Source of the DNA: a virus | IMG/VR virus record: IMGVR_UViG_3300046009_011060 | Location: 1-29,279 of that record | DNA: 29,279 nt | Strand: one strand, 5' to 3' | The notes under the pieces: generated by a model | What the model saw: only the letters and a program-made list of their open reading frames with translations | Database searches by the model: none | Told to the model about the DNA's origin: nothing | Part shown: piece after piece, positions 3,092 to 27,915 of the stretch | Position numbering within the stretch: position 1 is the first letter of the stretch | How the letters are laid out: every line of letters begins with the position of its first letter | Program-made: the position numbers and the translations under genes

Positions 3092-3724
3092 TTAAAATAT
3101 TGGGCATGTGCCTTTAGCACATAGAATTTCTGTTAAGATTGAATTTGTACGAGCATATTCATCTAAATATGTTGAACGTGATTCATTTAATTGACCATTT
3201 TTCATCCATGAATCTGGGTTGGAAGGGTTAGATACTAGATCCCATGTAAGGAGTTCAAAATCGTCTTGGACTTCCATTACCTCGCCCATTTGTTTTAAAG
3301 AACCCATACCGCGAGAGGAAATACCAATTGTTAAACCATTGTTAACTAAAGCACCTGCTATACGTCCAGATAATGTACCTTTTTCTCCTTGATCTGAAAA
3401 TATTTCAACAGTTCCCCATATCTCATCTCCATCCCACCATACTTTTCTAATAGCATGAGATGCATTTTTTAGATTGATTACTTGAGAGTCTGGGTGATCT
3501 AATTCACCACATGTTTCGGTTGTTTTCTGGTTGATTTTGCGTTGAAAATTGTCGATTTCGCGTTCCCACAACTCACGTTTGTAATATCTTCCATTACCGT
3601 TTTTTACTTCAACGGTTGCTAAAACACCTTCAACAAATACGTTTCCGCCGTTTCGCATTCCCTCAACTAAACGAACTGGTTTAGGAGAGAATTGTCTAGT
3701 TTCTATTAAGAGTTGTTTGTTCAT
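3092..3724 (-). CDS. 21: Prohead core protease, T4 gp21-like
   Basis: This is the serine protease that matures T4-type proheads by cutting scaffold, capsid and internal proteins. The 210-aa product has the expected features of the gp21 family: the histidine motif GELDHPDS, the serine motif GISSRGMG (nucleophile Ser) and the downstream DLVSNPSNPDS block. I chose the ATG at 3724, four nt past the upstream stop at 3729. Twelve further codons are open upstream, but they overlap the preceding gene. The N-terminus MNKQLLIETRQF contains LIE|T, a possible self-cleavage site. The C-terminal region has LNE|S. It sits directly upstream of the scaffold gene, as in T4. Confidence 0.92.
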   Translation of the reverse strand: MNKQLLIETRQFSPKPVRLVEGMRNGGNVFVEGVLATVEVKNGNGRYYKRELWEREIDNFQRKINQKTTETCGELDHPDSQVINLKNASHAIRKVWWDGDEIWGTVEIFSDQGEKGTLSGRIAGALVNNGLTIGISSRGMGSLKQMGEVMEVQDDFELLTWDLVSNPSNPDSWMKNGQLNESRSTYLDEYARTNSILTEILCAKGTCPIF

Positions 3725-3728
3725 GTTT

Positions 3729-5579
3729 TTAGTAATTTTCATCATATGACATTTCATCATTTATCATATCATTTAATGATATTTCTTCTATGTCATTTTC
3801 AGTTTCATCAATTACTTCTTTTTTCTTTCCTTTGGTTTTACCAATCATTTTTTCAACTTTAGCCTTAGCTTGCTCTAGTTTTTTGATATCTTTTTCAAGT
3901 TCTTTAACTTTTTTCTTATCAGTTAAAGCTTTCATATCTTCATCCTCGTCAAGTTTACCAAGTTGAGATTTACGTTTGTCAATCAAAACATCAATTTTAT
4001 CTAGTTTGGATTGTAAAACTTCATGTTCTGCTTCTTTGTTGATATCTGCTAAATCTTTTTCTACACTTTCTTTAAGTGATTGAAGTTCTTTAAGATTTAA
4101 ATCTTCCCCTTCAAACATTGGTGGTGGGATAATAGCGACACCTCCTTTAGCGTTTGGTTTAAGATCTTCTAATTGTTTTTTAAATTTCATTAAAGCTCCA
4201 ACATTTATAGGTCTTCCTCTTCTTACTTCTCCTGATTCAGCTTGGGCTATTTTAGCATCGATTTCTTCAATTTTTTTCTCTATCCATTTTATAAGTTCTT
4301 CTACTTCATACCTATTGTCTTTAAATTTAATTTCATGATATAAAACGTCTTTTCCAAGTACAGGATAAACAGTTGTTTTTGAATCAGCAAATTTCTTAAA
4401 TAAAGCTCTAATCATCGGCCAATATCTATCTGATATTTCATTTGTAATGATTTTAAGACGATTTCTATTGTCAGCGATTTGTTTTTCTCTAGTACCTCTA
4501 CCTTTTTCCATTCCTTCTAGGGTTACATAAAGTAAATCTGAGATAAAAATGGTGTAGTCAGGGGTAATTCGGATATGAGGGATTTTTAATGATTCATCAT
4601 ATGAAGGTGCATTAGGTCCGGGATTTAAGAGATTAAATGCTTTTCTAACTTCAGGGGTTAAAATGTAGTAAGTTGGGATTTTTTGTTCTCCTTTTTCAAG
4701 ATTAGCAGTATTGATAGTTGGGATACCATAATTTCCTCCTCCTCTTACTTCTTCCAATTCAGCATCAATCATTTCACGGATTGCTTTACGAAGTTTTTCT
4801 TCTTCTAAAGAACCATATGTTTTAAATTGAGCTTTATTTGCTCTAATTGTTTTACCTTGTTCAGTTTTTAATACTAGGTTACCAACTTCGTCTTTTTTCT
4901 CTACTGTTACTGTAGTACCTTTATATTTTACTTTATCACCTACGTTAAGTTCTTTAGATTCATTTAAATTGCCGTAACCAGAAGATTTATATTTTCCAGT
5001 AGCCTCTTTTGGGGTACCTAATCCTGGGTGTTCAGTTACATAGCCTAAATCTTTAACTCCAAATTGGCCATCTTTTGTATAATGAATTGGATCTTTTGCT
5101 AAGTTTTTAAATACGATGTCTTTTAATTCTTGCATCGTTTTATCAGCATTTTTAGGATCTTTCATTTCAGCATAATAACCCATCATAATTTGATCAAATA
5201 TCAAATTGTCAGGATTTTTATCATCTGTTTTGTCATATTGTTTTTCAAGATCTTTTTCTACAGGTTTAGATACTTTTTTCTCTTCAGCTTTTACTTTTTC
5301 GTCTTCGTCTTTTTTCTTTTTAGCAGCTTCAGCTAAGAAATTTTCAAATGCTGTTTCATATGATTCTTTTTTCTTAGGTTCATATCCAGCAACCATACTT
5401 AAACCAACTATATTTTCTGATATAATGCTTTTTGTTTTAAGAGATGCAGCTGCTTCTTCAAATGTAGCAGAATTTGGTACTATATGAGGGAAGTCACGTT
5501 TAGCTTCTGCTAAGAAAACGCCTTTATGGCCTTTACCTTCTTTAATTAATAGATACTGATCTTGTAAGGTTTTTTTCAT
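3729..5579 (-). CDS. Large core-like protein with repeated protease sites
   Basis: This 616-aa protein is not one I can name. It lies between portal and protease genes, where T4 has the small core genes 67 and 68. It is highly charged: FLAE|A occurs twice (residues 22-26 and 81-85), fitting gp21 cleavage. LNES near 200 is followed by a beta-rich stretch (VGDKVKYKGTTVTVEKK) and by a helix LRKAIREMIDAELEEV. Residues about 270-480 look like a folded domain, and from about 490 to the end there is a long Lys/Glu coiled coil. The start overlaps the upstream stop as ATGA. I infer a prohead core or internal protein that is partly digested in maturation. A structural role outside the core cannot be excluded. 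Confidence 0.75.
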   Translation of the reverse strand: MKKTLQDQYLLIKEGKGHKGVFLAEAKRDFPHIVPNSATFEEAAASLKTKSIISENIVGLSMVAGYEPKKKESYETAFENFLAEAAKKKKDEDEKVKAEEKKVSKPVEKDLEKQYDKTDDKNPDNLIFDQIMMGYYAEMKDPKNADKTMQELKDIVFKNLAKDPIHYTKDGQFGVKDLGYVTEHPGLGTPKEATGKYKSSGYGNLNESKELNVGDKVKYKGTTVTVEKKDEVGNLVLKTEQGKTIRANKAQFKTYGSLEEEKLRKAIREMIDAELEEVRGGGNYGIPTINTANLEKGEQKIPTYYILTPEVRKAFNLLNPGPNAPSYDESLKIPHIRITPDYTIFISDLLYVTLEGMEKGRGTREKQIADNRNRLKIITNEISDRYWPMIRALFKKFADSKTTVYPVLGKDVLYHEIKFKDNRYEVEELIKWIEKKIEEIDAKIAQAESGEVRRGRPINVGALMKFKKQLEDLKPNAKGGVAIIPPPMFEGEDLNLKELQSLKESVEKDLADINKEAEHEVLQSKLDKIDVLIDKRKSQLGKLDEDEDMKALTDKKKVKELEKDIKKLEQAKAKVEKMIGKTKGKKKEVIDETENDIEEISLNDMINDEMSYDENY

Positions 5580-6031
5580 TGTTTTTGTTTTAATAAATCT
5601 AGTGCTTTATTTAAATATGCTAGAACCATTGTTGAAGGTTTATATATGTCGTATGAACCTGGGTTAGCGGCATAAAATTCAACAGTTTCATTTTTTGCAT
5701 TTGATACAAGTGGGGATATTTCTCTTAAAATATTTTCAATTTGAGTGAATTCGTTAAGTCTCTCATTTTGGAATTTTTTAGTCATAGGTAATTCTTCACC
5801 TTCTTCCCACAATTTTTTCTTATCGTAAGATTTTGGTTTAATATTTGGAACTGGTTTAAATCCCAATTTATAGTAATAAATATTTTTAGTTCCTTTAGAG
5901 TTAGTTTTAGAAGCAAAAGCAGCAGGTGTAGCATAATTTTCACCAGTTCCAGGAGAAAAAGAAGCACCACCTTGTCCAGTTGCGGACATTTCTTTTAACT
6001 TAGCTCTAATTATTTCTTTTAGCTTATCCAT
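5576..6031 (-). CDS. Small core or internal head protein candidate
   Basis: This 151-aa protein starts with MDKLKEIIRAKLKEM, an amphipathic helix with LKE at its end, like the other putative capsid-targeting leaders in the window. It is followed by a Gly/Ser-rich stretch (ATGQGGASFSPGTGENYATP) typical of small proteins encoded near the portal and protease genes of marine T4-like phages. The rest is basic and then helical. It overlaps the gene before it by 8 nt and the gene after it by 4 nt, so the three are probably translated together. By position it could replace T4 gp67 or gp68, but I see no sequence match that proves this. Confidence 0.7.
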   Translation of the reverse strand: MDKLKEIIRAKLKEMSATGQGGASFSPGTGENYATPAAFASKTNSKGTKNIYYYKLGFKPVPNIKPKSYDKKKLWEEGEELPMTKKFQNERLNEFTQIENILREISPLVSNAKNETVEFYAANPGSYDIYKPSTMVLAYLNKALDLLKQKQ

Positions 6032-11082: not shown

Positions 11083-11925
11083 TTAGAATAATTTATCTAA
11101 TTTAGATTGGATTTCTCCGTTTAATTTATTTAATTTTTTAAGTTCGCCCATCAAATCTTCTCTTTCTGTACCTTCAGCTCCTTTAATTTTACTAGCTAAT
11201 TCTTTCATTTTATCTTTGGTTTGAGTTTGGGTTTTCAAAAGAGCATCTTTATCGTTAGCTATCCTATCTAATTTAGGAGTTTTAGAAGCTGCTGCGGCTG
11301 CTTTATCAGTTTCTGTTGCTTTAGGTTCAGATACTTTAGGTTCAGATATTTTAGGTTCTTTTGCTACTTTGGGTTCTTTTTCTGTTTTTTCACCAGCTAC
11401 TTTACCTCTTTTTTTATCTGATTTACTTAAATATGGAGTAAAGTTAGGTAATTCTTCTCCAGTTTTAGGATTTTCAAAGTATTCATCCTCTGGGCGGTTT
11501 AAGAATTTTCTTATTTCTTGGTTGTTGAATGTTGCTGTATCAACTCCCATATCTTTACTTAATTGATTAGTATCTACTGTACCTTCATCTTCTAATTTAG
11601 TTAATAGGAGATTAAGGGCTTTACTTTTAGATGTATTTTCATCTCTAAATTTATTTAAAGTTGATTTAAACCCTTCCATATCGGATATATCATATATTGG
11701 GGTTTCATTTAGTTGATCTTCTTTAATTTTTTGACCGCCCGTTGTTTTAATACTTTTAATATTGCTATCTTTTTTTAATCTAGCTATTTCTGCCTTATCT
11801 GCAGGGGTATTATATGCCATAACATCTGTTTCACCTTTTGCATTAGTAACAGTAACATTAGATTCTTCATTCAATGCTGCAGCAATTTCTTCACGTACGA
11901 TTTCAAGTAAACGGGATTTTTTCAT
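11083..11925 (-). CDS. Core or internal head protein with targeting-type leader
   Basis: This 280-aa protein begins MKKSRLLEIVREEIAAALNEES, an amphipathic helix ending in LNE, matching the other putative capsid-targeting leaders. A second LNE|T lies near residue 74. The middle holds a small, possibly folded domain (about 75-150). It is followed by a low-complexity stretch with repeated KEPK/SEPK units (about 183-205), an Ala-rich segment, and a C-terminal coiled coil. The gene is transcribed alone: a perfect late promoter lies 12 nt before its ATG and a strong terminator 60 nt after its stop. A separate late transcript suggests high expression, as expected for an abundant head component. No homologous family is recognised. 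Confidence 0.75.
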   Translation of the reverse strand: MKKSRLLEIVREEIAAALNEESNVTVTNAKGETDVMAYNTPADKAEIARLKKDSNIKSIKTTGGQKIKEDQLNETPIYDISDMEGFKSTLNKFRDENTSKSKALNLLLTKLEDEGTVDTNQLSKDMGVDTATFNNQEIRKFLNRPEDEYFENPKTGEELPNFTPYLSKSDKKRGKVAGEKTEKEPKVAKEPKISEPKVSEPKATETDKAAAAASKTPKLDRIANDKDALLKTQTQTKDKMKELASKIKGAEGTEREDLMGELKKLNKLNGEIQSKLDKLF

Positions 11926-18270: not shown

Positions 18271-18756
18271 TTATTGATAAGTTTCAAACATATCATCAGC
18301 TAAATCCCAATCTTTTCCAGATTCGGTAATTACATTAATATAATTTACAAAATCATTAGTTAAATCATCAATATCCATTGCTTTGTAACTTAATTTTTTG
18401 CTAGGATTGTAACTAGGATCCATATACCCAGCATCAAAATCCTCATATAAGTTCTCAACAAATCCTTTTATTAAAGCAATAATATAATTATTATCTAAAG
18501 GTTTATCATCTCTTAAAGGTAATAATGATTTAAAATAAGGAATAGCTTTAATAAGATCACTTTCAAGTTGTTCTATATCTAAATACCCTCTATTAATATC
18601 ATCTGTCCATTTAGATGGTAATTCTTCATCATCATCTGGGGTAATATAGTTATTTTTAATTGATAAATCATCATATTCTTTCAATTCAGATTCAGTAATT
18701 AATCCAGCTAATTTTTGCATACGACGAAATTCTTCATTTAATGGTTGTTTTTTCAT
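18271..18756 (-). CDS. Acidic protein with MQKLAG targeting-type leader
   Basis: This 161-aa acidic protein begins MKKQPLNEEFRRMQKLAGLITESE. The segment FRRMQKLAGLI is the same peptide as the scaffold C-terminus and the N-terminus of the gene at 19363-19983. It is followed by ITE|S, a fit to the gp21 cleavage rule. The remaining 130 residues are helical with many Asp and Tyr, and no known domain is recognised. I infer that the leader docks the protein in the prohead core and is removed on maturation, so the mature acidic domain would be packaged. The gene precedes a terminator-like hairpin. The start is an ATG with an A-rich leader. Confidence 0.7.
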   Translation of the reverse strand: MKKQPLNEEFRRMQKLAGLITESELKEYDDLSIKNNYITPDDDEELPSKWTDDINRGYLDIEQLESDLIKAIPYFKSLLPLRDDKPLDNNYIIALIKGFVENLYEDFDAGYMDPSYNPSKKLSYKAMDIDDLTNDFVNYINVITESGKDWDLADDMFETYQ

Positions 18757-18774
18757 AATTTCATTAGTTATATA

Positions 18775-19254
18775 TTATACATATTGGGTGACCCATTTTG
18801 GTTTATTGTTTAATTTTTTCCAATCTAATTTTTTTACTTTTACCTTGTCATTAATATAAAAATTCTTATACGCTTCCACAGTATCTTCTAATTTATATTG
18901 ATCGGGCATACACTGAGGAGGGTTAACAAATCCGGTATCAGGGATACTAGGTTCGTTATTTTGTAACCATTCAAGTACGTCTTTTGTCTTATGTTTTTTA
19001 CCATATCTTTTTTCAAATTCATCACATATTTCTAAACCATGAGATATAAGCCATCTATAATGTTGTATTGATTCTCTTACCCATTTTGATGATGGGTGGT
19101 TGGTGTGTGATTGTTTATAAGGAGCAGTTGAGCCGCTTACCCAATGAGCAGTACTACACATTTGTGCACTTTCAATCTGCATTTTTCTAATATGATCATC
19201 TGCTAATTCACGCGCAGCAATGATCGGATTTTCATTAATATAAAATATATTCAT
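18775..19254 (-). CDS. Conserved phage protein (MNIFYINENP family)
   Basis: This 159-aa protein belongs to a family that I recognise from many marine and cyanobacterial myoviruses, where it is annotated as hypothetical. The conserved blocks are MNIFYINENPIIAARELADDH, KMQIESAQMCSTAHW, YKQSHTNHPSSKWVRES, HYRWLISHGLEICDEFEKRYGKKHK, PPQCMPDQYK and the closing AYKNFYINDK. The many conserved His, Trp, Arg and Glu residues suggest an enzyme or a nucleic-acid-binding protein, but I know of no proven function. A strong terminator and a TATATTTAA element lie back to back upstream, with the ATG 14 nt after the element. Confidence 0.75.
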   Translation of the reverse strand: MNIFYINENPIIAARELADDHIRKMQIESAQMCSTAHWVSGSTAPYKQSHTNHPSSKWVRESIQHYRWLISHGLEICDEFEKRYGKKHKTKDVLEWLQNNEPSIPDTGFVNPPQCMPDQYKLEDTVEAYKNFYINDKVKVKKLDWKKLNNKPKWVTQYV

Positions 19255-19268
19255 AACTCTTATTTTAT

Positions 19269-19277
19269 TTAAATATA
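19269..19277 (-). promoter_or_regulatory. TATATTTAA element directly after a terminator
   Basis: The minus strand reads TATATTTAA beginning one base after the T-run of the terminator at 19279-19312, and 14 nt before the ATG. Transcription ends and restarts here, which supports this element as a true promoter better than at the other sites. Confidence 0.55.
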
Positions 19278-19278
19278 C

Positions 19279-19312
19279 AAAAAAAAGTAGCCCAATCCAA
19301 AGATCGGGCTAC
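19279..19312 (-). terminator. Strong rho-independent terminator
   Basis: On the minus strand GTAGCCCGATC and GATTGGGCTAC form an 11-bp stem with one G-U pair and a TTTG loop, followed by eight Ts. It ends the transcript that includes the gene at 19363-19983 and probably the dense small-gene cluster upstream of it. Confidence 0.9.
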
Positions 19313-19362
19313 AACTCCAAAAATATTTTTTAAGTGACTAGGTTATAGATCTAGTCTAAATG

Positions 19363-19983
19363 TTACACAGCTGCTATTTTTTTAGCTAAATCTACTACTT
19401 CAGAAGATTTAAAAGCAGATAAACCACTTTCTAAACCTTGCATTACTGTTGAATGAGCTTCAGTAGCACCCATTCCGCTAGATATAGCAGCAGCTGCTAA
19501 CACGGCAGCATATAAACCATGAGCGGCTTTATGTAGTTCAGATTTTTTATCATGAACATCTTGATTACTATATTTTGATGGAAATGCTTTTTTTAACATA
19601 GCACCAATGGCATCCATGTAAGTATGTTCTAGGGAATGTCCCCATTTTTTAAGAGCATTACCTACAACTGTTCCTTGTTTTTTATCTTTTTGGAATACAG
19701 ATGATACTACATTTACTCCTTTACCTAAAGCACTAATTAATCCAGGTGCTCCAGCAATTAAGCCTAATGTTAAAGCGGCTCCTTCTTGGAGTTCTTTATC
19801 TTTTGGGGAAGTTTGGATTGATGATACACTAGATTTAAGGGTTGCTAATGCTTGTTTTAAACCAATTTCGGCACCTTTATCAGCTTGTGGGTCTGTTGAT
19901 GCTGCTGGTTTATTATTATTCGGGGTAGTTTCTTCTAAAATAATACCTGCCAATTTTTGCATTCTTTTAAATTCTTCAGTCAT
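19363..19983 (-). CDS. Hydrophobic Ala/Gly-rich protein with MQKLAG leader
   Basis: This 206-aa protein begins MTEEFKRMQKLAGIILEETT, the leader peptide shared with the scaffold C-terminus and the gene at 18271; ILE|E is a possible cut site. A linker rich in Asn, Pro and Ala follows. Two hydrophobic helices, at about 70-95 (LGLIAGAPGLISALGKGVNVV) and about 163-180 (AAVLAAAAISSG), flank an amphipathic, His/Lys-rich middle. The composition fits a membrane-active protein, for example one that helps genome delivery, but this is speculation. No family with known function is recognised. The strong terminator at 19279 lies 50 nt past the stop. Confidence 0.72.
   Translation of the reverse strand: MTEEFKRMQKLAGIILEETTPNNNKPAASTDPQADKGAEIGLKQALATLKSSVSSIQTSPKDKELQEGAALTLGLIAGAPGLISALGKGVNVVSSVFQKDKKQGTVVGNALKKWGHSLEHTYMDAIGAMLKKAFPSKYSNQDVHDKKSELHKAAHGLYAAVLAAAAISSGMGATEAHSTVMQGLESGLSAFKSSEVVDLAKKIAAV
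19949..19972 (-). repeat. Repeat copy B: codes the FKRMQKLAG leader
   Basis: It matches 1512-1535 at 23 of 24 bases, in the same reading frame, although the two host genes are otherwise unrelated. Near-identity at DNA level, including third codon positions, suggests recent copying or gene conversion and not only selection on the peptide. Confidence 0.8.
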
Positions 19984-20031
19984 TTTATTTTTTGTTATAA
20001 ATATGGTTTAAATGTTGATCTGTTATGGGGA

Positions 20032-20307
20032 TTATGCTTTAGTTACGCTAGTAATTTTATATGGGATATTACCTGTCATGTCTTCTACTCTATCCTTCCA
20101 AAACCCAACAGGGAATTTTGGGTTAAGTTTTTGCAGTTGGGATGGTTCAAGTGTAATTACTGTACTGTCTGGATGGGATGGGCCTCCATCCATTTCAGAA
20201 GCAATATAATCAACTAGATATCTTCCAGGTTCAGTCACAGCTAAAGTTTCGTTCAAAATTTTAATGATTTCTTCTTTGATAAGTTGTTTAAGTTGAGATG
20301 TTTTCAC
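20032..20307 (-). CDS. Small protein with targeting-type leader, GTG start
   Basis: The coding frame starts at a GTG (20307-20305) that overlaps the upstream stop as GTGA; no ATG fits. The 91-aa product begins (M)KTSQLKQLIKEEIIKILNET, an amphipathic helix ending in LNE|T, nearly the same as the leader of the gene at 25584-25850 (KDLKQLIKEEIKNILE). The body (EPGRYLVDYIASEMDGG...GFWKDRVEDMTGNIPYKI) is not recognised. It is the last gene of the tightly overlapped 20032-21741 run, which supports co-translation. Confidence 0.7.
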   Translation of the reverse strand: MKTSQLKQLIKEEIIKILNETLAVTEPGRYLVDYIASEMDGGPSHPDSTVITLEPSQLQKLNPKFPVGFWKDRVEDMTGNIPYKITSVTKA

Positions 20308-20564
20308 GATTTATGTATTTTTAATTTTAATGTTCCTGTTCCTTTTATTACACGATGCCACTCATGTCTTGGTATAAATATACGTTCTTTTAGTGAGGTA
20401 GGCAAATGGTTATCTAATTGAAGTTTCCAATCTGTATCTTCTAAAATTTCGATAGTTCTATCTTCATTATCACGGTGCCATAACAGTTCAATTGGATCTA
20501 TATTTTCGTTAAATTCACGAATAATATATTTGTCTGTAACTTCTATGTCTGTGTATGGGGTCAT
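20304..20564 (-). CDS. Cupin-like small phage protein
   Basis: This 86-aa protein has the block LLWHRDNEDRTIEIL...WKLQLDNHLPTSL...IFIPRHEWHRVIKG, which I recognise as a short beta-barrel protein widespread in phages. The WHRD, HEWHR and alternating strands fit a cupin-type fold, and the His residues could bind a metal. It has no targeting-type leader, unlike its neighbours, which is a useful contrast. It overlaps both flanking genes by 4 nt (ATGA upstream, GTGA downstream). The function is unknown. Confidence 0.68.
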   Translation of the reverse strand: MTPYTDIEVTDKYIIREFNENIDPIELLWHRDNEDRTIEILEDTDWKLQLDNHLPTSLKERIFIPRHEWHRVIKGTGTLKLKIHKS

Positions 20565-20821
20565 TTTTCTTTAGGTAAAAACCAATTTGAACACCATTTT
20601 GAAGGATCTTTAATTTGATTTCCTTCATTATCTACTAATTCAGCTGTTCCCATATGTTCTTGATAATATGAATTACCACACATATGTTTCCCCTCAACTT
20701 TACTTTCCCATTCTATATAGTAAAATTTACAAACATGACAACCAAACCCTACTGGTGAATACATGTAAGCAGGTGATTTTGGTGATTTTTCCTCTTTAAG
20801 TAAGTCTATTAATTTAATCAT
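20561..20821 (-). CDS. Four-cysteine HiPIP-like protein with targeting-type leader
   Basis: This 86-aa protein begins MIKLIDLLKEEK, nearly identical to the leader of the ART-like gene at 22424 (MIKLIDILKEIT). The body has four cysteines, C28-x2-C31-x16-C48-x28-C77, ending in KWCSNWF. The order CxxC...C...(G/K)WCxxW is that of high-potential iron-sulfur proteins (HiPIP), which hold a 4Fe-4S cluster, although the last spacing here is longer. A zinc site is the alternative. No signal peptide is present. Position among leader-bearing genes suggests that it is packaged. Confidence 0.62.
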   Translation of the reverse strand: MIKLIDLLKEEKSPKSPAYMYSPVGFGCHVCKFYYIEWESKVEGKHMCGNSYYQEHMGTAELVDNEGNQIKDPSKWCSNWFLPKEK

Positions 20822-20824
20822 TTG

Positions 20825-21349
20825 TTAAAAGTCTAACATTTTAAAATTTCCTTTATCATCAATTCCAATATTTTCTTGATGAAAATCTAATTCATCATAT
20901 CCTTCCTTCTCTAATATTTTATCAACATCTTTATATAATTTTTTTAATTTAAGAGTCATTTCAAGTAATTCAGGATGTTGTTTTATAACAACATCTAAAG
21001 GATTATCAGGATCAAATTTTTTAGGGTTATAAAATGGGATTGATTTGAAGGGATTTAATAATGATGTAAGTGATTTTAATTTATTATAATATTCTATAAT
21101 AGGTTTAATATTTAATTTTTCAATAACTAAATACTTACCAGTTACTTTATATACTTTAGGAAAATATTTTGGATGATTTCTAAACATATCAGCATGATAT
21201 TGGATATCTTCAGGGTTGTTATAATTGGATATTTTAATAACTTTAGAAGGGTCGATTTTAGAGGGATAAGCAGTAAATACTCCTCCACTTCCTAATTCAG
21301 GTTTAGATAAGATATTTAATTCATTTAATATTTCAAGTAATTTAATCAT
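20825..21349 (-). CDS. Minimal protein-kinase-fold protein with targeting-type leader
   Basis: I chose the ATG at 21349, which overlaps the upstream stop as ATGA; five codons further up are also open. The 174-aa product begins MIKLLEILNELN, a leader like those of its neighbours. Kinase-like features follow in order: a Gly-rich loop ELGSGGVFTAY (18-28), the ATP-binding Lys in VIKIS (K39), a hinge-like LVIEKL (about 74-79), the catalytic-loop pattern DFHQEN (D155, N160) as in GDLHPxN of APH-type kinases, and MLDF (D173) at the position of the metal-binding Asp. The protein ends right after that Asp, so the C-lobe is almost absent. It may be an active minimal kinase or a non-catalytic ATP-binding relative. 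Confidence 0.7.
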   Translation of the reverse strand: MIKLLEILNELNILSKPELGSGGVFTAYPSKIDPSKVIKISNYNNPEDIQYHADMFRNHPKYFPKVYKVTGKYLVIEKLNIKPIIEYYNKLKSLTSLLNPFKSIPFYNPKKFDPDNPLDVVIKQHPELLEMTLKLKKLYKDVDKILEKEGYDELDFHQENIGIDDKGNFKMLDF

Positions 21350-21741
21350 TTTGTTTTTCCCCATTTTTTACCTTTACCAGGTGTTTTACATTGTGAAGGT
21401 GTAGGACGACATGAAGGATATTTTGAACGTTTTTCTCCTTCTTTTCTACCACATGCTTTATAACCTCCATCTCCATCAGGTGCATTACAATCTACCCATC
21501 CACCTTCTTTTCCTTTAGGTCCTTTACGTTTGAACCAAGTACGAAGTGTTTCTTTAACTTTTTCTAAAAGTAATTCTTCTTTAACACCTTTCCAAATGTC
21601 TCCTTTTCTACATCTAACTACAGCACCTGATTTGTAAGCGGAAGGTTTATCGAATTTGCGGTCAGCAATGCGTAAACATCTGTCGCGTTTTTTTTCTTCT
21701 TCAGCAATAACCTCGTTAATAAGTTTCTGTAGTCTATCCAT
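21346..21741 (-). CDS. Cys-rich basic phage protein (DUF5872-like)
   Basis: This 131-aa protein starts MDRLQKLINEVIAEEEKK, a leader helix with INE|V and IAE|E. I recognise the body from marine phages: CLRIADRKFDKPSAYKSGAVVRCRKGDIWKG, then TLRTWFKRKG, GGWVDCNAPDGDGGYKACGRKEGEKRSKYPSCRPTPSQC, a pattern like the DUF5872 family. Six cysteines and many Lys/Arg suggest a zinc-binding, DNA-touching protein; this is inferred. The ATG at 21741 overlaps the upstream stop by one base; GTG and TTG codons at 21744 and 21747 are possible but less likely. The stop overlaps the next start as ATGA. Confidence 0.75.
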   Translation of the reverse strand: MDRLQKLINEVIAEEEKKRDRCLRIADRKFDKPSAYKSGAVVRCRKGDIWKGVKEELLLEKVKETLRTWFKRKGPKGKEGGWVDCNAPDGDGGYKACGRKEGEKRSKYPSCRPTPSQCKTPGKGKKWGKTK

Positions 21742-22412
21742 CACCAAAATCCTGAAAATGAAGATTTTAAACCTAATAATTTAGCATAACGTGGTAATCT
21801 ACATGACCAATATGATGCTTTTGTTCTATCTTTTTTGTTTTTACAATCGTGACGTGCTGCAAATGCTCTACGTGCCTCTGGATTGTTTATTTTAGCTGAT
21901 AAGCCGGATGTGTCTCCAAAAGATACTTTTTTTACTTTACCTTTATCTCTTACGTAAACATAGAATTTTTTAGATCCACCACGTTTTGGTTTCCCAATTG
22001 GTGGGTTCTTTTTACCTTCTGCTTCTTCAAGTTCTTCTTCCTCTAACATAGGTAAGTCTAAAGGTACTTTTTTACCTTCATACATTCCATATTCACCTAA
22101 ATTAGTTTCAAGTAAAATTTCTTTATCATCATCGTTTACATGAATAATTTCACGTAAATATAGGTAACGAGCTTCCGACCATAAATCGAGAAACGATTTA
22201 GAGCCATAACGGAACGTGTTTTCGGTGAGTGGGAGTTTTTTATCCACGTGATATCGCAGATTTTCCGATAATATATCTTTTTTAACTAAACTTTCGTTTA
22301 ATACTACTCCAGGATTACCTACATTGTCACAATCGTGACATCCACAATTGCAAGAATCTTTTTTAGGTGGAGTAGATAATACTTCTTTAATTAAATTTCT
22401 TAGACGTTCCAT
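21741..22412 (-). CDS. Modular virion-type protein with Cys cluster
   Basis: This 223-aa protein begins MERLRNLIKEVLSTPP, a targeting-type leader. A Cys cluster CNCGCHDC (about 22-29) follows, which may bind zinc. Next is a block I know from environmental T4-like phages: LSENLRYHVDKKLPLTENTFRYGSKSF, EARYLYLREI, LLETNLGEYGMYEGKKVPLDLPM. After an acidic linker, the C-terminus reads GGSKKFYVYVRD, KVSFGDTSGLSAKINNPEARRAFAARHDC, YWSCRLPRYAKLLGL, a conserved basic module often seen in phage structural proteins. LSE|N, LTE|N and LLE|T sites recur through the N-terminal half. A head-associated role is inferred; the exact function is unknown. Confidence 0.75.
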   Translation of the reverse strand: MERLRNLIKEVLSTPPKKDSCNCGCHDCDNVGNPGVVLNESLVKKDILSENLRYHVDKKLPLTENTFRYGSKSFLDLWSEARYLYLREIIHVNDDDKEILLETNLGEYGMYEGKKVPLDLPMLEEEELEEAEGKKNPPIGKPKRGGSKKFYVYVRDKGKVKKVSFGDTSGLSAKINNPEARRAFAARHDCKNKKDRTKASYWSCRLPRYAKLLGLKSSFSGFW

Positions 22413-22423
22413 AAATATAAATA

Positions 22424-22993
22424 TTATTCAGCTGCTCTTCTAAAAGAAGAAGTAGATTTAGCTTGAGAAAATTTAAGTGGAATATTTTTAGATTTAATCC
22501 AATCCAGAACAAAATTATAATCATTCAATATTTCATCATAATATTTAGTACCTTCATGATAATCTTTAAGATATTCTTTAAAACTATCTGGGCTGATAAT
22601 GGTGATTTCTTCAATATAAGGGGTTAAATCAATCTCACCATATTTTTTAGAATTAATCCTTTCTTCAGCTTCATAATTTGGAGCGTTTTTAGAATATAAA
22701 TCTTCTCCACTTTCTATATCTGCGTATGGTTCAAATTTATATTTATTAGACATTTTATCTCCATCAAGTTTAATTCTAACATGATGTTTTTCTTCTGATA
22801 ATGTTCCTAAGTTAGGGTTTCGGGTAAATGAGTAATATTTATTTGCTGCAAAACTAGAAAAAGAAGGATCTAATATAATTTTCCCTTTATTTTTAATCAT
22901 TGAAGCAATAGTATCAGTATCAGTAAAATGATATATATCTCCTACTTGTTTACCTTCAGTAATTTCTTTTAATATATCTATTAACTTAATCAT
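22424..22993 (-). CDS. DarT-like ADP-ribosyltransferase candidate with targeting-type leader
   Basis: This 189-aa protein begins MIKLIDILKEITEGKQ, a leader with LKE and ITE|G, a close fit to the gp21 rule. The body follows the layout of small ADP-ribosyltransferases: YHFTD (21-25) near the start, YYSFTRNP (53-60) in the middle, HVRIKLDG (71-78), and YEAEERI (107-113) before a strand (YIEEITIIS). The His/Tyr-Ser/Glu order and the 'AE' before a C-terminal strand recall DarT-type and related phage ARTs, with E110 or E111 as candidate catalytic Glu. T4 packages and injects the ART Alt, so a packaged ART would be a functional parallel. It ends in RRAAE, as does the protein at 24676. Family membership is probable, activity unproven. 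Confidence 0.6.
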   Translation of the reverse strand: MIKLIDILKEITEGKQVGDIYHFTDTDTIASMIKNKGKIILDPSFSSFAANKYYSFTRNPNLGTLSEEKHHVRIKLDGDKMSNKYKFEPYADIESGEDLYSKNAPNYEAEERINSKKYGEIDLTPYIEEITIISPDSFKEYLKDYHEGTKYYDEILNDYNFVLDWIKSKNIPLKFSQAKSTSSFRRAAE

Positions 22994-23006
22994 ATATTAA
23001 TAAATA

Positions 23007-23519
23007 TTAGGAAAAATATGAATATTCCGGGAGGGTGGTTTCTAATTCGATAAATTTAGGGATAGATGAATGGGGGCTATTGAGTAATATATTTCTATAT
23101 TCGTCCCATATTTTATTTAAACCTTGATTAAATGATAATGCTCGTTTAGTTTTATGATTTTCATTATCAATGTTGTAAAAATGTTTTATAGTCTCATTAT
23201 TACATTTTGTTTTGATAATTAAATCAGTATTAAAGTTAGATAATTCTAATCCTTTTCTTAATAATCTAAAACATAATGTACCTTCAATAATTATTTGATT
23301 TCCTCTTCTTTGGTGCCAAGTAACATCGCTTATAAAAGCATCTAATGGATCTTTTAATTCTAAATATTCATCTGAAATGAATAATGGGCGATCAAGTTCT
23401 TGGGCTATTTTTCTAGCTATAGGGAGTTTACCAGTTTTAGTATATCCTAAAACAACTATTGTATTAAATTGGTAACAATATTGAATTAATTCAGGGGTAA
23501 CTAAATCTGTTGGACTCAT
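23007..23519 (-). CDS. P-loop protein coupled to phosphoesterase
   Basis: This 170-aa protein has an N-terminal strand and loop IVVLGYTKTGKLPIARKIAQEL, a Walker A-like G25-x4-GK31 in which the usual Ser/Thr after Lys is Leu. The following LFISDEYLEL, QIIIEGTLCFRLL (Walker B-like strand) and a helical C-terminus fit a small-molecule or nucleotide kinase fold. The missing Ser/Thr may lower metal binding; a Pro follows directly. The ATG overlaps the phosphoesterase stop as ATGA, so the two are probably made together. The substrate is unknown. An inactive nucleotide-binding protein is possible. Confidence 0.65.
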   Translation of the reverse strand: MSPTDLVTPELIQYCYQFNTIVVLGYTKTGKLPIARKIAQELDRPLFISDEYLELKDPLDAFISDVTWHQRRGNQIIIEGTLCFRLLRKGLELSNFNTDLIIKTKCNNETIKHFYNIDNENHKTKRALSFNQGLNKIWDEYRNILLNSPHSSIPKFIELETTLPEYSYFS

Positions 23520-24613
23520 AAAGTAAAGTAAATATTATTCTTTAAACCTTTAGTTCTATCCCATAATAATGCTTCAGCAGAACGTTTTGCTCCTATGTAT
23601 CCTTTTTTATGATGCCATGAATCTGATCCTGATAGGGAATTAAAGTATCTAATGATAACTCCTTGATATTCTTCAGTTGATTTGAATTTAATTTCTTTTT
23701 TATGATGTAAATGTCCTAAATGGAATTCTCTATATGTTGATAAGGCCCACTCTGTTGGTTTTTCATTAGCCATAATTAAGGGTAAATCAGTTACTTTCTC
23801 TTCATTACCATGCGTATAACCAATTAATACTTCGCCGTATTTGTAATATTTTCTAGGATTCGCGGAGTTATCTACAGTTACATTCTCATTGTTGTAAAAC
23901 CAACTTTCTAATGAATCACCTAAGTAAAAATTTCTTTCAAAATCATGGTTACCAGGAACCATAATAACATCTACTGGGGCAATTTGTTGGAGTTTATTTA
24001 TAGCATCAACTAATAATTGTCTACCTAATCTAAATGTTTTTTGCCATCTAGCATCTTCTTCTTGGGGGGTGCCTTTGGTTGTACTATTAAATGGGTGAGA
24101 TCTATCTGAGTTAAAGAAATCGTTTCCTATAGGGAAAACAATACGTTCAATATTTTTATTGGATGTTTCATCAATAAATTCTCCAACACATTGATTAAAT
24201 ATAGTACTAGCTATTTCTAAATTATAATCATGATTGGTTTCTTCAGACCATGCTATTTTACCTAAATGTAAATCAAAAATATTAAGTTCTAATAATAATG
24301 GTTCTTTATCTACTTTAGTTTTATAATTTATTTTTTCAACTTTAGGAGATAATTTTTTAATATCTTCAATGAATTCTTCTCGAATATTGTTTAAAGTTTC
24401 AGATTGTTTATTTTTTAACCAAACTTTTACTTGAAATAAAGGTGTTGTAATTATTTTATTATCAGGACCTTTTGCTCCTACTTCCCATGTATTAAGAACT
24501 TGTTTTTCAATTTCCCAACTTTCTAAAGATATATCATATATTTTTAAAAGATCATCAACTGTAACTACACGGTTAGTGATTTCGGATGATATAACTTTTG
24601 TATTTTCTTCCAT
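23516..24613 (-). CDS. Calcineurin-like metallophosphoesterase
   Basis: This 365-aa protein has all the metal-binding motifs of the family in order: D114-x-H116 (FDLHLG), GND at 163-165, GNHD at 221-224, H268 in GYTHGN, and GHLHH at 300-304. The N-terminal 110 residues are helical and lack a known domain. The FFNSDR and LGDSLESWFYNN segments are typical of a phage-encoded branch of the family. Substrates in the wider family include phosphoproteins, cyclic nucleotides and DNA ends (Mre11/SbcD), and sequence alone does not decide. It is coupled by a 4-nt overlap to the P-loop protein downstream and preceded by a TATATTTAA element at 20 nt. Confidence 0.85.
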   Translation of the reverse strand: MEENTKVISSEITNRVVTVDDLLKIYDISLESWEIEKQVLNTWEVGAKGPDNKIITTPLFQVKVWLKNKQSETLNNIREEFIEDIKKLSPKVEKINYKTKVDKEPLLLELNIFDLHLGKIAWSEETNHDYNLEIASTIFNQCVGEFIDETSNKNIERIVFPIGNDFFNSDRSHPFNSTTKGTPQEEDARWQKTFRLGRQLLVDAINKLQQIAPVDVIMVPGNHDFERNFYLGDSLESWFYNNENVTVDNSANPRKYYKYGEVLIGYTHGNEEKVTDLPLIMANEKPTEWALSTYREFHLGHLHHKKEIKFKSTEEYQGVIIRYFNSLSGSDSWHHKKGYIGAKRSAEALLWDRTKGLKNNIYFTL

Positions 24614-24633
24614 AAATTTATTTTAAGGTTTTC

Positions 24634-24642
24634 TTAAATATA
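24634..24642 (-). promoter_or_regulatory. TATATTTAA element before the phosphoesterase
   Basis: The minus strand reads TATATTTAA 20 nt before the ATG. A weak AT-rich hairpin, TTGGTT/AACCAA (24665-24646), lies just upstream and may end the preceding transcript. Promoter function is inferred from the shared motif. Confidence 0.5.
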
Positions 24643-24675
24643 AGATTGGTTTTTTATATAACCAAATATTTTATA

Positions 24676-25584
24676 TTACTCAGCTGCTCTAATATCCAGG
24701 TCTGGGGAAATTAAAGTATATACATTTTTTATAGTTCTAGTTTTTTTAAGTTGTCCTCCAGAAACATATGGTTTACCAAAATCTACTTCAACCCATTCAA
24801 CCATTCCTCTACTATCAGGTTCACCAGATCTAGTTCCTGAAGATGCTGCGGCTACAACATTTCCAGTTCCATAATCATCATGAGTGAAGCTGGTACCAGG
24901 TCTGTATGAGGTTTTTAGTTTATATGGGAGAGTATCAGGGTTAATTAATGTTTTTTCTTGGGTTGGTTCATCTAATGGTATCACATATTCAAAATCAGCT
25001 AAAGTAAGTATTTTGATAGGTTTAATAGGTTTTTTAGTATTTTTTAAGTGTTCAATAGATTTTTCTTCAATATCAGAGTCATCCCCTGTTCCTCCCATTA
25101 ATGTAATAAGACTATCATCTCCTATTAAGGCGTAATAGTATTTGTTTGTGTGGGATTTAATTATATCATTTTTAGTAGATTCTGTTGTAAAAAGTAAATC
25201 ATATTTTTCTCCTTGAGATGATAATACAGGTTTTAATATTTTATATACTACAACTTCTTTAAATGATGCAGGAATAGTTTTTATATGTTCTAGATATCCT
25301 AAACGTTTTAATAATTCACCTTCTATTTGGTTGATTAATGTTTCTTTAGTTTCTTGAACATTTCTATCTCCAACCATCTGTTGAGTTAAATTAGGTATAT
25401 CTAATATATTTTTCCTCTCAAATTTACGATCAACATAATGTTTAGTTAATTTAAGTTCATCTAAATCAACTACTTCACTTAATAATTTATGAAGCAATGT
25501 GACATCCTTAGGGTCCTTCATATCAGGGTATCCTTTAGGAAACTTATAAGCTATGCTATTTAAAAATTGTTCTAAAATATCCAT
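24676..25584 (-). CDS. Conserved phage protein with C-terminal HxxYGxGxV module
   Basis: This 302-aa protein begins MDILEQFLNSIAYKFPKGYPDMKDPKDVTLL, a start that I recognise from environmental T4-like phages but cannot assign. The centre (about 95-200) is mixed alpha/beta. The C-terminal part has FTHDDYGTGNVVAA and MVEWVEVDFGKPYV, a small beta module like the VxHxxFGxGxV element at the C-terminus of UvrD-type helicases, which binds partner proteins. The last residues are RAAE, shared with the ART-like protein. The ATG overlaps the upstream stop by one base, within the run of core-like genes at 25584-27915. A virion-related role is inferred from these neighbours. Confidence 0.7.
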   Translation of the reverse strand: MDILEQFLNSIAYKFPKGYPDMKDPKDVTLLHKLLSEVVDLDELKLTKHYVDRKFERKNILDIPNLTQQMVGDRNVQETKETLINQIEGELLKRLGYLEHIKTIPASFKEVVVYKILKPVLSSQGEKYDLLFTTESTKNDIIKSHTNKYYYALIGDDSLITLMGGTGDDSDIEEKSIEHLKNTKKPIKPIKILTLADFEYVIPLDEPTQEKTLINPDTLPYKLKTSYRPGTSFTHDDYGTGNVVAAASSGTRSGEPDSRGMVEWVEVDFGKPYVSGGQLKKTRTIKNVYTLISPDLDIRAAE

Positions 25585-25850
25585 TATAATTTCATATCAG
25601 CTATTTTTTTAACAGAAACGGCTAGACTGTTTTTTTGCATTGCCGGACTCATCCCTCCCCAAACAGCATCTAAAACTTGTTTTAATTCAGCAGGGTTGTT
25701 TATTTGAGATAAAGCATTTTTTCCTGGTCCTTGAAGGTAACCGATTAATTTTGCAACTTCAGCAGGGTTTTTTTTAGTAGGAGTGCCTTCAAGTTCAAGA
25801 ATATTTTTAATTTCTTCTTTAATTAATTGTTTTAAATCTTTGTTTTTCAT
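25584..25850 (-). CDS. Small protein with targeting-type leader
   Basis: I chose the ATG at 25850. The open frame extends 29 codons upstream, but that part is a Lys/His/Gln-rich reading of the upstream gene's 3' end in another frame. The 88-aa product begins MKNKDLKQLIKEEIKNILELEGTP, almost the same leader as at 20307. The body (AEVAKLIGYLQGPGKNALSQINNPAELKQVLDAVWGGMSP) is helical and resembles short proteins found near core genes in related phages. No known function. Confidence 0.7.
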   Translation of the reverse strand: MKNKDLKQLIKEEIKNILELEGTPTKKNPAEVAKLIGYLQGPGKNALSQINNPAELKQVLDAVWGGMSPAMQKNSLAVSVKKIADMKL

Positions 25851-25863
25851 GGTATAGAGTTGT

Positions 25864-26328
25864 TTATTTTGGTGTTTCTTCTGTTGGTGGTGTTTCAGCA
25901 GGTGTTTCTGCAGGTGCTTCTTCTGTTGGTGGTTCAAATCCTGGTTCTGTTCCTGTGGCTTCTTCTTTAGTTCCGTATCTTAAAATTTGAGCTATTGATT
26001 CAGCTGCACGTTCTTCTTCTGGGAGATTTCTTAGGTAATATTTTTTACCTTCTATTTGGGCTATCCAACTACGTTTACCGTAAATTAAATAAAAGTTTTG
26101 CCCATTTTTTAAATTAATTCTAAATGTAGTAGGACGTGGAGCAACCCAATCAATAGATTCCAAGAAATTATCGTATCCCTTAGTAAGCAAATCAATTATA
26201 ACTGATTTTAATTCTGGGAATTTAGTCAATTCATCGTATTGGGCTGCTTCTTCTTGTGTAACAGTATATGTTGAGTATACTTGTTTAACTAAACCTCTAA
26301 TTCTATTTTTAAGTTGATCACGAGTCAT
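25864..26328 (-). CDS. Conserved phage head-region protein
   Basis: This 154-aa protein has a compact N-terminal domain followed by a disordered tail rich in Pro, Glu, Thr and Ala (APAETPAETPPTEETPK). The block YDNFLESIDWVAPRPTTFRINLKNGQNFYLIYGKRSWIAQIEGKKYYLRNLPEEERAAESI is one I recognise as a conserved hypothetical of environmental T4-like phages, always beside acidic core-type genes. The N-terminal helix MTRDQLKNRIRGLVKQVY is amphipathic but lacks a clear L/I-x-E site. Start and stop lie tight against the neighbours. No enzymatic motif. Confidence 0.72.
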   Translation of the reverse strand: MTRDQLKNRIRGLVKQVYSTYTVTQEEAAQYDELTKFPELKSVIIDLLTKGYDNFLESIDWVAPRPTTFRINLKNGQNFYLIYGKRSWIAQIEGKKYYLRNLPEEERAAESIAQILRYGTKEEATGTEPGFEPPTEEAPAETPAETPPTEETPK

Positions 26329-27209
26329 TATTTTTTAGATTTAAGTTTAGCTAAAACTGCTTCTTTAATTTTCGCCTTCATAGCCTGTGAGGTAGCAATT
26401 TTACCTGCTTTTTCATCAGACATACCTTTATCTTTTAATGTATCGTATATTTCACCACGTTTTTTGATTTGTTTTTTAGACATTTCTTCAATGGCTCCTT
26501 CTTCACTTGCTATATTTACCATAGCATCAATTTGAGGTTCTTTTAACTCAAATTCAAGGTAATTTTTTGCACTACCTAACATAGTACATGCCTTTGTAAT
26601 TTTAGATTGCCACCAAGCTGGGAAATCAACTTCTTGATCTGATTTGTCAAATGGTTTTAGCATTTTATACAATGCAAGGGCATTTTGAGCAATTTTATAA
26701 AGTTCACCTTTGATCATATGAGGTTCATCATCTTGATGACCTAAATCAAGATCTTCCATCTGCATTTTCTTTTTATCTTGAGCAGCTTTTTTCATTGACT
26801 CTTCTTTATCTCCATCTTTATCAATATCTAGAAAATCAGGTTTAGCTTTCTTTTCAGATAATGGCTTAGATAAAGCCGCTTGAATCATTTCTTTTAATTT
26901 TTGATCTTTGTCCATAGTATCTTCAGTTGATGCTTCTTCAGCAGGTGTTTCTTCAGGTTGTTCTGCTTTTTTCTTTACTTGATTAACAGCAATTCCATAA
27001 GCATACATTTCTCCATCAGCCCCTCTAGTATCGTATAATTGATCTAAACGAGTATTAATAATAGCTTTAAATTTATCTATTATTTCTTTAGCTTGTTCTG
27101 AAGTAGGGCGGAATGATTCATTTAAAGAGTTAAAAGATCCAACGGAATCTTTTATTGGGTTTCCGTTGGGTTTTTTAGATTGGTTATTTTTAACTCTTTT
27201 TTCAGGCAT
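26328..27209 (-). CDS. Core-type protein with acidic calcium-loop-like motif
   Basis: This 293-aa protein contains several modules that I recognise from internal or core proteins of environmental T4-like phages. SLNE|S (28-31) and PLSE (116-119) are possible protease sites. Next comes FLDIDKDGDKEESMKKAA, with D128, D130, D132 and D134 spaced like an EF-hand loop but without the final Glu. It is followed by EPHMIKGELYKIAQNALALYK, VDFPAWWQSKITKACTMLGSAKNYLEFE and a C-terminal basic helical tail (KIATSQAMKAKIKEAVLAKLKSKK). The basic tail may contact DNA. It overlaps the gene after it by one base and follows the histone-like gene by 3 nt. Confidence 0.72.
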   Translation of the reverse strand: MPEKRVKNNQSKKPNGNPIKDSVGSFNSLNESFRPTSEQAKEIIDKFKAIINTRLDQLYDTRGADGEMYAYGIAVNQVKKKAEQPEETPAEEASTEDTMDKDQKLKEMIQAALSKPLSEKKAKPDFLDIDKDGDKEESMKKAAQDKKKMQMEDLDLGHQDDEPHMIKGELYKIAQNALALYKMLKPFDKSDQEVDFPAWWQSKITKACTMLGSAKNYLEFELKEPQIDAMVNIASEEGAIEEMSKKQIKKRGEIYDTLKDKGMSDEKAGKIATSQAMKAKIKEAVLAKLKSKK

Positions 27210-27212
27210 TTT

Positions 27213-27386
27213 TTATTCTGCTTTATCTTCTGCAGTTGAAGTTTTCTTAAATTCAGCGGCTAATTTTTTAATTGTATTAGCAGCACTTCTTGCTCTACCA
27301 CGAGCAGCTTTAGAAGTTTTAGCATGTTCTGTTTCTAAAATAGCTACAGCTTCTTTAATTGCGTTTAAAATTTCAGTTGTGTTCAT
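27213..27386 (-). CDS. Histone H1-like (Hc1-type) DNA-binding protein
   Basis: This short gene of 57 codons plus stop encodes a Lys/Ala-rich protein that starts with an acidic-amphipathic helix (MNTTEILNAIKEAVAILETE). It continues HAKTSKAARGRARSAANTIKKLAAEFKKTS, the same pattern as Bacteroidetes and Chlamydia Hc1-type proteins (G/KAARxRxRxAxxxIxKLAxEFRKxS). Those proteins bind and compact DNA. It lies within the core-type gene run, 3 nt before the next gene, so it is probably a late product and may be packed with the genome or act on host DNA. The similarity also supports a Bacteroidetes host. Confidence 0.75.
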   Translation of the reverse strand: MNTTEILNAIKEAVAILETEHAKTSKAARGRARSAANTIKKLAAEFKKTSTAEDKAE

Positions 27387-27414
27387 AGATTTTATTTTAT
27401 ATAGATTTAATTAT

Positions 27415-27915
27415 TTACTCATTACCTCCACCAATATATTCGCTAACGAAAAATTTTAGTGTATTTCCTACTTGTGTTTCAAGTTTTTCATTGTTCATTC
27501 CTTTAGCGATTTTAAATGCACTCATTAAATGGTCCATTAATTCGCCTTCTGTTCCTTCCATATTAGCTGCTACATCTTCTAAACCACCACCAGTTGTAGG
27601 TGCTTCTTCTGCAGGTGCTTCTTCAGTTGTATCAGTTGTTTCAGTATCAGTTGTTTCAACATCTTCTACTTCTTCATCTTTTTTCTTTTTTGCTTCGTCT
27701 AGATCTTCATCTTCATATAATGGATCATAAGCACTTGCTTCTTCAGCGTCTGTTTGACCAGGGTTATTAATATCTAGTTCTAATTCAGCTAAGATCATTT
27801 CACGAATTTTTCCACGAAGACCTCCTTCATTTAAATTTTCTTTTTTTAATATTGGGTTTAAATTCTCAATAGCTTTACTTTCTTTCAAGAATTTTTTTAA
27901 ATCAAAATTATCCAT
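27415..27915 (-). CDS. Acidic core-type protein with targeting leader
   Basis: This 166-aa protein begins MDNFDLKKFLKESKAIENLN, the leader in this window most like the T4 internal-protein targeting sequence (amphipathic helix with Phe and a final L-x-E|S). A second helix, LRGKIREMILAELELD, resembles one in the 616-aa protein (LRKAIREMIDAELEE). The middle is acidic with repeats of Thr-Asp-Thr-Glu and Glu-Ala-Pro (about 80-115). The C-terminus is a short helical domain. The acidic, low-complexity make-up fits a prohead core component that is degraded during maturation. A 2-nt gap separates it from the upstream gene. Confidence 0.75.
   Translation of the reverse strand: MDNFDLKKFLKESKAIENLNPILKKENLNEGGLRGKIREMILAELELDINNPGQTDAEEASAYDPLYEDEDLDEAKKKKDEEVEDVETTDTETTDTTEEAPAEEAPTTGGGLEDVAANMEGTEGELMDHLMSAFKIAKGMNNEKLETQVGNTLKFFVSEYIGGGNE

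Follow-up and report, generated by a model that had tools for sequence, protein, structure and literature searches.

Shared terminal leaders of at least four sequence types, one of them equal to the tail of a scaffold-like protein, as putative capsid-targeting elements in a T4-like virus group

In phage T4, the internal proteins IPI-IPIII and Alt carry a short N-terminal capsid-targeting sequence (CTS), which is cut by the prohead protease gp21. According to the accessible part of PMC9026906, ten residues suffice in IPIII, of which residues 4 and 7 serve targeting and residues 8 and 10 processing, D at position 10 prevents cutting while targeting persists, and Alt is processed at both ends; T-even internal proteins are described in the available part of PMC3012670 as diverse, with only the CTS conserved. 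In the giant phages SPN3US and phiKZ, inner-head proteins are cut after residue-x-E by a diverged relative of gp21 (PMC5694885 and PMC9026906, in the portions available). Here we consider the IMG/VR virus record IMGVR_UViG_3300046009_011060, a stretch of 29,279 bases (the window) whose apparent genes all lie on the minus strand and which is probably a fragment of a virus genome. Nine of its genes begin with short leaders of several types, which recur on many unrelated proteins in related records. With a probability of about 0.85, these leaders serve capsid targeting as in T4 and are then removed. Each would be a short helix by which its protein docks into the prohead core, the S77 protease would cut after (L/I/V)xE and release the mature body, this body would remain in the head and be ejected together with the DNA, and several unrelated leaders would perform one and the same job.

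As in T4, proteins that are otherwise unrelated begin with a short leader containing a phi-x-E site, and the same genome encodes an S77 protease. The differences are that there are four or five leader types here and one in T4, that each of eight large records has 7 to 14 strict leader open reading frames (ORFs) and two further records have 9 and 4, while T4 has three internal proteins and Alt, and that one type here equals the scaffold tail, with some proteins tagged at both ends. Unlike the propeptides of the giant phages, the leaders are about 10 to 30 residues long and common to unrelated proteins. By its portal, the window is nearest to Flavobacterium phage immuto (59.9% identity), followed by Microcystis phage Mel-JY01 (51.7%). 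Rhodothermus phage RM378 (33.2%) is also among the nearest named phages but gives no strict leader hit; it is a cultured Far-T4 phage (PMC4360716), and in the part of that article available the terms prohead and internal protein are absent.

The preliminary description of the window had assumed one common kind of leader, in the place of which at least four unrelated sequence types are found: class A, MKxSxLKxLIKEE...LNE; class B, EEFKRMQKLAGIITE; class C, NFDLKKFLxENK; and class D, MIKLIDILKE. The leaders of T4 are alike in make-up, as in MKTYQEFIAE and in MAKINELLRE of gp24, which we take to be cut as MKTYQEFIAE↓A and MAKINELLRE↓S (the arrow marks the presumed cut, here and below), and class D resembles the gp24 start by eye. 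A possible fifth type, class E (FLxxIxYKFPKGYPDM), opens the gene at 24676; a similar N-terminus is seen in 9 of the 11 records scanned, the window included, with that of immuto divergent and none found in records G022 and G030, and in loci L324 and L325 class E is joined to a body of ADP-ribosyltransferase fold.

Twelve window genes had been proposed to carry leaders, and all twelve are present on the minus strand at the positions listed below. With held-out profiles, retrained on other genomes with no window sequence included, nine of them (11083, 18271, 19363, 20032, 20561, 20825, 22424, 25584 and 27415) score 21 to 50 bits at an empirical p < 1e-4, where the training leaders had first been found by profiles containing window sequences and include orthologues of some window genes. 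The proposal is weak for 21741 and finds no support for 21346 and 5576. Internal ATGs are the likely starts of the genes at 20825 (start at 21349), 21346 (21741) and 25584 (25850). The genes concerned, with held-out scores, are:

5576-6031, minus strand: gene between portal and protease, leader unsupported (p 0.11)
11083-11925, minus strand: class A leader MKKSRLLEIVREEIAAALNE↓E, leader DNA 11866-11925, score 33.1; body cluster of 64 ORFs
18271-18756, minus strand: class B leader MKKQPLNEEFRRMQKLAGLITE↓S, leader DNA 18691-18756, score 49.6
19363-19983, minus strand: class B leader MTEEFKRMQKLAGIILE↓E, leader DNA 19933-19983, score 45.8
20032-20307, minus strand: class A leader MKTSQLKQLIKEEIIKILNE↓T with GTG start, leader DNA 20248-20307, score 50.4
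20561-20821, minus strand: class D leader MIKLIDLLKE↓E on a small Cys-containing protein, leader DNA 20792-20821, score 26.1
20825-21349, minus strand: class D leader MIKLLEILNE↓L on a predicted kinase-like fold, leader DNA 21320-21349, score 21.4
21346-21741, minus strand: DUF5872 protein (PF19197, E 7.6e-7) with A-like start MDRLQKLINEVIAE↓E, profile unsupportive (leader p 0.16)
21741-22412, minus strand: weak A-like leader MERLRNLIKE↓V (p 0.012)
22424-22993, minus strand: class D leader MIKLIDILKEITE↓G on a body of ADP-ribosyltransferase fold, leader DNA 22955-22993, score 27.0
24676-25584, minus strand: possible class E leader MDILEQFLNSIAYKFPKGYPDMKDPKD
25584-25850, minus strand: class A leader MKNKDLKQLIKEEIKNILE↓L, score 36.2
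27415-27915, minus strand: class C leader MDNFDLKKFLKE↓S with a second possible site ENLNE↓G and an acidic body, score 36.0

The set of ORFs in which leaders were counted comprises the window, immuto, nine large records (G001-G006, G008, G022 and G030), 80 protease loci and 120 loci fetched with a class A pattern. A strict leader is present on 392 of its 4935 ORFs, corresponding to 336 of 4344 distinct proteins, where class A is over-represented because 120 loci were fetched with its pattern and where some ORFs are counted twice because certain loci lie inside large records. The leader-bearing proteins fall into 162 body clusters, formed by single-linkage BLASTP at 1e-3 so that distant relatives are counted apart, and that unrelated proteins share leaders, as had been claimed for the window, is thereby extended to its relatives. 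Strict leader ORFs number 12 in immuto, 10, 13, 14, 11, 10, 7 and 7 in G001-G006 and G008, 4 in G022 and 9 in G030. Leader genes form runs, as exemplified by nine adjacent ones AAAACCACC in G003, and leader positions are nearly confined to protein termini.

One and the same body can also carry different leaders. More than one leader class is found in 13 body clusters, among them a mixed cluster of 29 (16 B, 12 C and one A) that contains 27415 and was probably chained by the clustering. The 2H phosphoesterase bodies of G001 and G022 are 54% identical and begin differently, with leader B in G001 and, in G022, with a D-type start whose score of 15.2 is below the strict threshold. DUF5872 bodies occur with class C and class D starts: one relative of 21346, 65% identical to it, starts MKLTDIL (class D) and another bears a class C leader. 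A body with the motif NDVYxILKTYKF is found with leaders A and C.

The profiles were first trained on leaders of the window, immuto, G001 and G002, which are also counted among the 392. In genomes outside training, 26 of 27 class A hits are N-terminal and none lies in T4 or RM378; this test covers 1210 proteins and its genomes include orthologues of some training genes. The 49 control records, selected for another helical start (MKKLLEE), contain no strict N-terminal hit in 844 ORFs, and such hits are likewise absent from HTVC008M (126 ORFs in 100 of 147 kb), phi14:2 (125 ORFs), T4 (238 ORFs in 150 of 168.9 kb), RM378 (168 ORFs) and Mel-JY01 (44 ORFs in 50 of 190 kb). At the DNA level, a class A pattern with start codon is met in at least 120 IMG/VR stretches, while its scrambled version is met in none and its reversed version in one. 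A loose T4-style motif (M, 4 to 12 residues, phi-phi-x-E) matches 13 of 36 window N-termini, where 200 shuffles give 3.5 on average (standard deviation 1.6, maximum 9), but it also matches about 8% of ordinary proteins; this T4-derived regular expression was dropped as a detector, being too permissive, and the profiles were used in its place.

Class B connects the leaders with the T4-like head module of the window, which is recognized by Pfam through a gp23 capsid protein, an S77 prohead protease, a gp20 portal and a gp17-type terminase. The features needed here are:

3-1466, minus strand, cut by the window edge: gp23-like major capsid protein (PF07068, E 4.4e-48), with KQLVVE↓Q at the T4 cleavage position
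1499-2902, minus strand: scaffold-like core protein with C-terminus PIVE↓SNDVFKRMQKLAGLI, equal to the class B element; tail DNA about 1502-1549
3092-3760, minus strand, likely ATG at 3724 (MNKQLLIE↓T): gp21-like S77 prohead protease (PF03420, E 6.8e-25)
3729-5579, minus strand: head-region protein with CTS-like start MKKTLQDQYLLIKE↓G, a start seen in 13 of the 15 members listed; its putative function is assigned by position only

The scaffold-like gene is located between those of the capsid protein and the S77 protease, a position that suggests the scaffold role of its product. This protein and its relatives end in PIVE↓SN(D/E)xFxRMQKLAG(I/L)I, which is the core of class B; the scaffold-like protein of immuto ends IISEVSEQVSRWQKLAGIIK and the scaffold-position protein of Mel-JY01 ends ILNESNNVVERMKKLAGIVK, while the scaffold ends of HTVC008M and T4 differ from class B. 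When distinct contexts of the class B motif are counted over all ORFs examined, 47 are C-terminal, 30 N-terminal and one internal. In 26 of 27 distinct scaffold tails, (L/I/V)xE(S/A/G/N) occurs at most 9 residues upstream of the tail; the tails of immuto and G030, which are outside the 27, have E then V. The site thus stands next to the tag at N- and C-terminal tags alike, that is, between body and tag at either end. Members of the MKLTDIL family have a D-type start and, in some cases, also C-terminal LKE...RMKKLAGL. Since leader B is the scaffold tail placed at the other end of a protein, it very likely docks where the scaffold tail docks. Mel-JY01 has, in addition, one strict internal class A-like helix (score 24.2) within its scaffold-position protein (L144:23855-24970), so that leader A, too, may be a copy of a scaffold segment. 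In phage P22, a terminal segment of the scaffold has been used to bring foreign proteins into procapsids; here, in contrast, the phage itself appears to have placed such a segment on natural proteins and to have made it removable.

The preliminary description had further placed a gp21-like protease in the window, and this is borne out: aligned with T4 gp21, the S77 protease keeps the motifs GELxHP (His) and GxSSRGxGS (Ser), which we take to be the catalytic ones. Capsid proteins of the relatives have KQLV(V/T/I)E or KQIVSE at the gp23 cleavage position, with the exception of L042, so that a V-x-E site is kept there and the protease plausibly has a specificity that covers the sites behind the leaders. 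In L042, the gp23 N-terminus lacks the stretch that contains the site, which may be an assembly fault. The H/S/D triad of proteases of this kind is given in the available part of PMC5694885.

A site of this type also follows the leaders. The rates were determined with the site left out of the profiles, class B being found by 12 columns and class D by 5, and earlier rates of 20/23 for B and 19/19 for D were partly circular, as those profiles include the site. Among class A representatives, 84 of 103 have (L/I/V)xE at most 14 residues after the leader core, as do 30 of 32 of class C; for class B, phi-x-E occupies the expected place in 34 of 42 leaders and for class D in 28 of 37, while random internal windows contain (L/I/V)xE at a rate of 0.16. 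For class A, the expected place is occupied in 69 of 103 cases, and each place from 4 before to 9 after it in at most 7.

To exemplify, consider the junction of leader and body in 22424. In 19 of 19 distinct sequences, retrieved by a motif downstream of the junction, P3 is I or L, P1 is E and P1' is G (16), A (2) or S (1), followed by KQ(V/I)G. This same junction (I/L)xE↓(G/A/S) stands behind three leader types, A (3), D (15) and E (1), where the D members are interrelated, so that the number of independent events is about three or four rather than nineteen. One of the nineteen, L338:3001-3525, has only leader and junction in common with 22424 (residues 1-21, 76% identical); its body is different and contains YHGT. 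In a second case, two adjacent G001 genes with leaders C and A have both bodies in one G004 gene, in reversed order and behind a single leader C, and at the joint the second body has no docking part and keeps PLNE↓AE where G001 has KLNE↓AV.

The preliminary description had expected leaders to be enriched near gp21 homologues. S77 is found in 20 of 50 leader records, which are 50 of the 80 leader loci listed and mostly longer contigs, against 2 of the 49 control records. A T4 portal is present in 21 of the 50, S77 and/or portal together in 24, and all four leader records above 100 kb have S77. Co-occurrence in the same record is thus observed, and nearness along the genome is not general: the leader genes within 25 kb of S77 are 8 of 12 in immuto, 6 of 10 in G001, 2 of 14 in G003 and 0 of 4 in G022. 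The reading of these starts as capsid-targeting leaders is favoured by leader sharing, terminal placement, leader swaps with the site kept, the T4-type site itself and the co-occurrence with S77, from which we infer docking, cutting, packaging and injection.

Several observations weigh against this reading. At low thresholds in the held-out genomes, internal hits amount to 3 of 11 for class B, 6 of 22 for C and 4 of 18 for D, and they include RM378 (B and D) and T4 (C), one each, all with scores below 18. The N-terminus LKQAIREE of the terminase is similar by eye, though a terminase is not expected as cargo, and scores -9.9 with the held-out profile, which thus rejects it. Of the 103 class A representatives, 34 have no phi-x-E where it is expected, and P1' is A, G or S in a fraction of only 0.35 of 156 sites against a background of 0.21, so that of the cut (L/I)xE↓(A/G/S) proposed for the window, the site itself is enriched behind the leader and the residue after it is enriched for A/G/S but follows no strict rule. 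S77 is not seen in 30 of 50 leader records, many of which are short fragments, and six leader records of at least 40 kb have neither S77 nor portal; these may be fragments without the head region. Many leader genes are far from head genes. The profiles do not recognize T4's own leaders (no strict hit in 150 kb of T4), so that any descent from a common leader is hypothetical. The seven-residue Alt propeptide (PMC9026906, accessible part) does not fit a cut after E at position 10. Finally, a literature search found no virion proteome of any member, and the term mass spectrometry is absent from the available part of PMC7077304, on other phages of the same host; packaging and cutting are both, accordingly, putative.

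Among other explanations, the best surviving one is that the leaders are docking tags for another partner, such as a membrane, the tail or a host complex, and that phi-x-E is a mere part of the helix and is left uncut. Amphipathic helices are common as tags, and the class A leaders without a site and the leader genes away from the head genes would agree with it. This is nevertheless unlikely, since one junction (I/L)xE↓(G/A/S) is common to three unrelated leaders, class B recurs as the scaffold tail, with a site that parts tag from body at N- and C-terminus alike, and S77 is enriched in leader records.

Far less probable is that the function of the shared element lies in its DNA or RNA, as a translation start context or recombination spot, with an incidental peptide. 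Within a record, leader DNA is indeed alike, with an identity of 0.71 to 0.82 against 0.31 to 0.34 ten codons further, and it is near-identical in some neighbouring G003 genes; between records, however, the third positions of matching codons agree only in 0.63 to 0.75 while the peptide is kept, and class B is found at C-termini too. Concerted evolution of the leader DNA was also considered; the within-record excess of third-position identity is small. Least probable of all is that AT-rich genomes yield many look-alike N-termini rich in K, E, L and I by composition, from which 21346 and 5576 are indistinguishable by profile and with which the 8% of proteins matched by the loose motif would agree, but which the pattern counts and the absence of strict N-terminal hits in controls in our judgement refute for the nine strong genes.

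If the leaders are capsid-targeting elements, the question is what they would carry. Pfam and PHROGs assign no function to most leader proteins of the window, and among 137 leader proteins scanned the best Pfam E values are those for Zeta toxin, DUF5661, AAA_33, DUF6934 and DUF5872. The body of 22424 belongs by its modelled fold to the ADP-ribosyltransferase superfamily (predicted local distance difference test score, pLDDT, 78), with a putative activity dependent on nicotinamide adenine dinucleotide: Foldseek gives Tpt1 (E 4.7e-4) as the sole hit below 0.001, and VIA gives Z 8.6 for Tpt1 and 7.5 for DarT, with most other top rows in the same superfamily. The packaged Alt of T4 is also an ADP-ribosyltransferase by annotation. 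The product of 20825 is predicted to be kinase-like (pLDDT 76), its best matches being aminoglycoside phosphotransferases (E 2.3e-4) at a low TM-score of 0.36. The kinase-like proteins of this family stop at or just past a DF-type motif (..KMLDF, KIFDL, KLLDI) and so are without what normally comes next. Outside the window, G001 148412 is near Acb1, which acts against the cyclic oligonucleotide-based antiphage signalling system, at 26.8 bits with a Pfam gathering cut-off of 27 and with two HxT motifs visible; its match to T4 57B covers only 15 residues (E 0.002), and the 2H protein has no sequence match in PDB. According to the accessible part of PMC12373910, T4 Ip1-Ip3 block type IV restriction enzymes, which by analogy makes a counter-defence role plausible for some of the leader cargo.

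Some neighbours of the leader genes in the window are also of note:

18775-19254: DenV-like pyrimidine dimer glycosylase (PF03013, E 2.4e-6), flanked by two class B leader genes; denV of T4 likewise adjoins ipII and ipIII
20304-20564: small protein without leader, kept close to leader genes in relatives (G002 27507, G003 23587)
27213-27386: histone H1-like protein of 57 residues (PF07432, 22.3 bits, below the cut-off of 23.5), adjoining the class C leader gene 27415

The equality of leader B and scaffold tail and the existence of several leader types both go beyond the preliminary description. In literature searches by titles and abstract starts, with most subscription papers outside their scope, there was no report of these leaders, and neither the number of leader types, nor that of cargo genes, nor the sharing with the scaffold tail was found in print; six leader strings searched as text gave no match.

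With odds that we regard as about even, the capsid-targeting reading can be taken one step further: the phage would fill its head by means of copies of the detachable scaffold tail, other leaders doing the same, and any gene placed behind a leader would become cargo, so that each genome would have its own replaceable injected set. The class B element would work at either end of a protein, set off from the body by a protease site, and the injected set, with ADP-ribosyltransferase-fold, kinase-like and anti-defence-like proteins, would act before the first phage gene is read. Short modular natural tags of this kind could serve to load chosen proteins into phage heads. If the capsid-targeting reading is true, the question of what a capsid-targeting leader binds has a concrete and testable answer, as one leader type is the scaffold's own tail, and for a widespread group of uncultured phages the proteins that they inject, many of these of no known function, would be listable from sequence alone.

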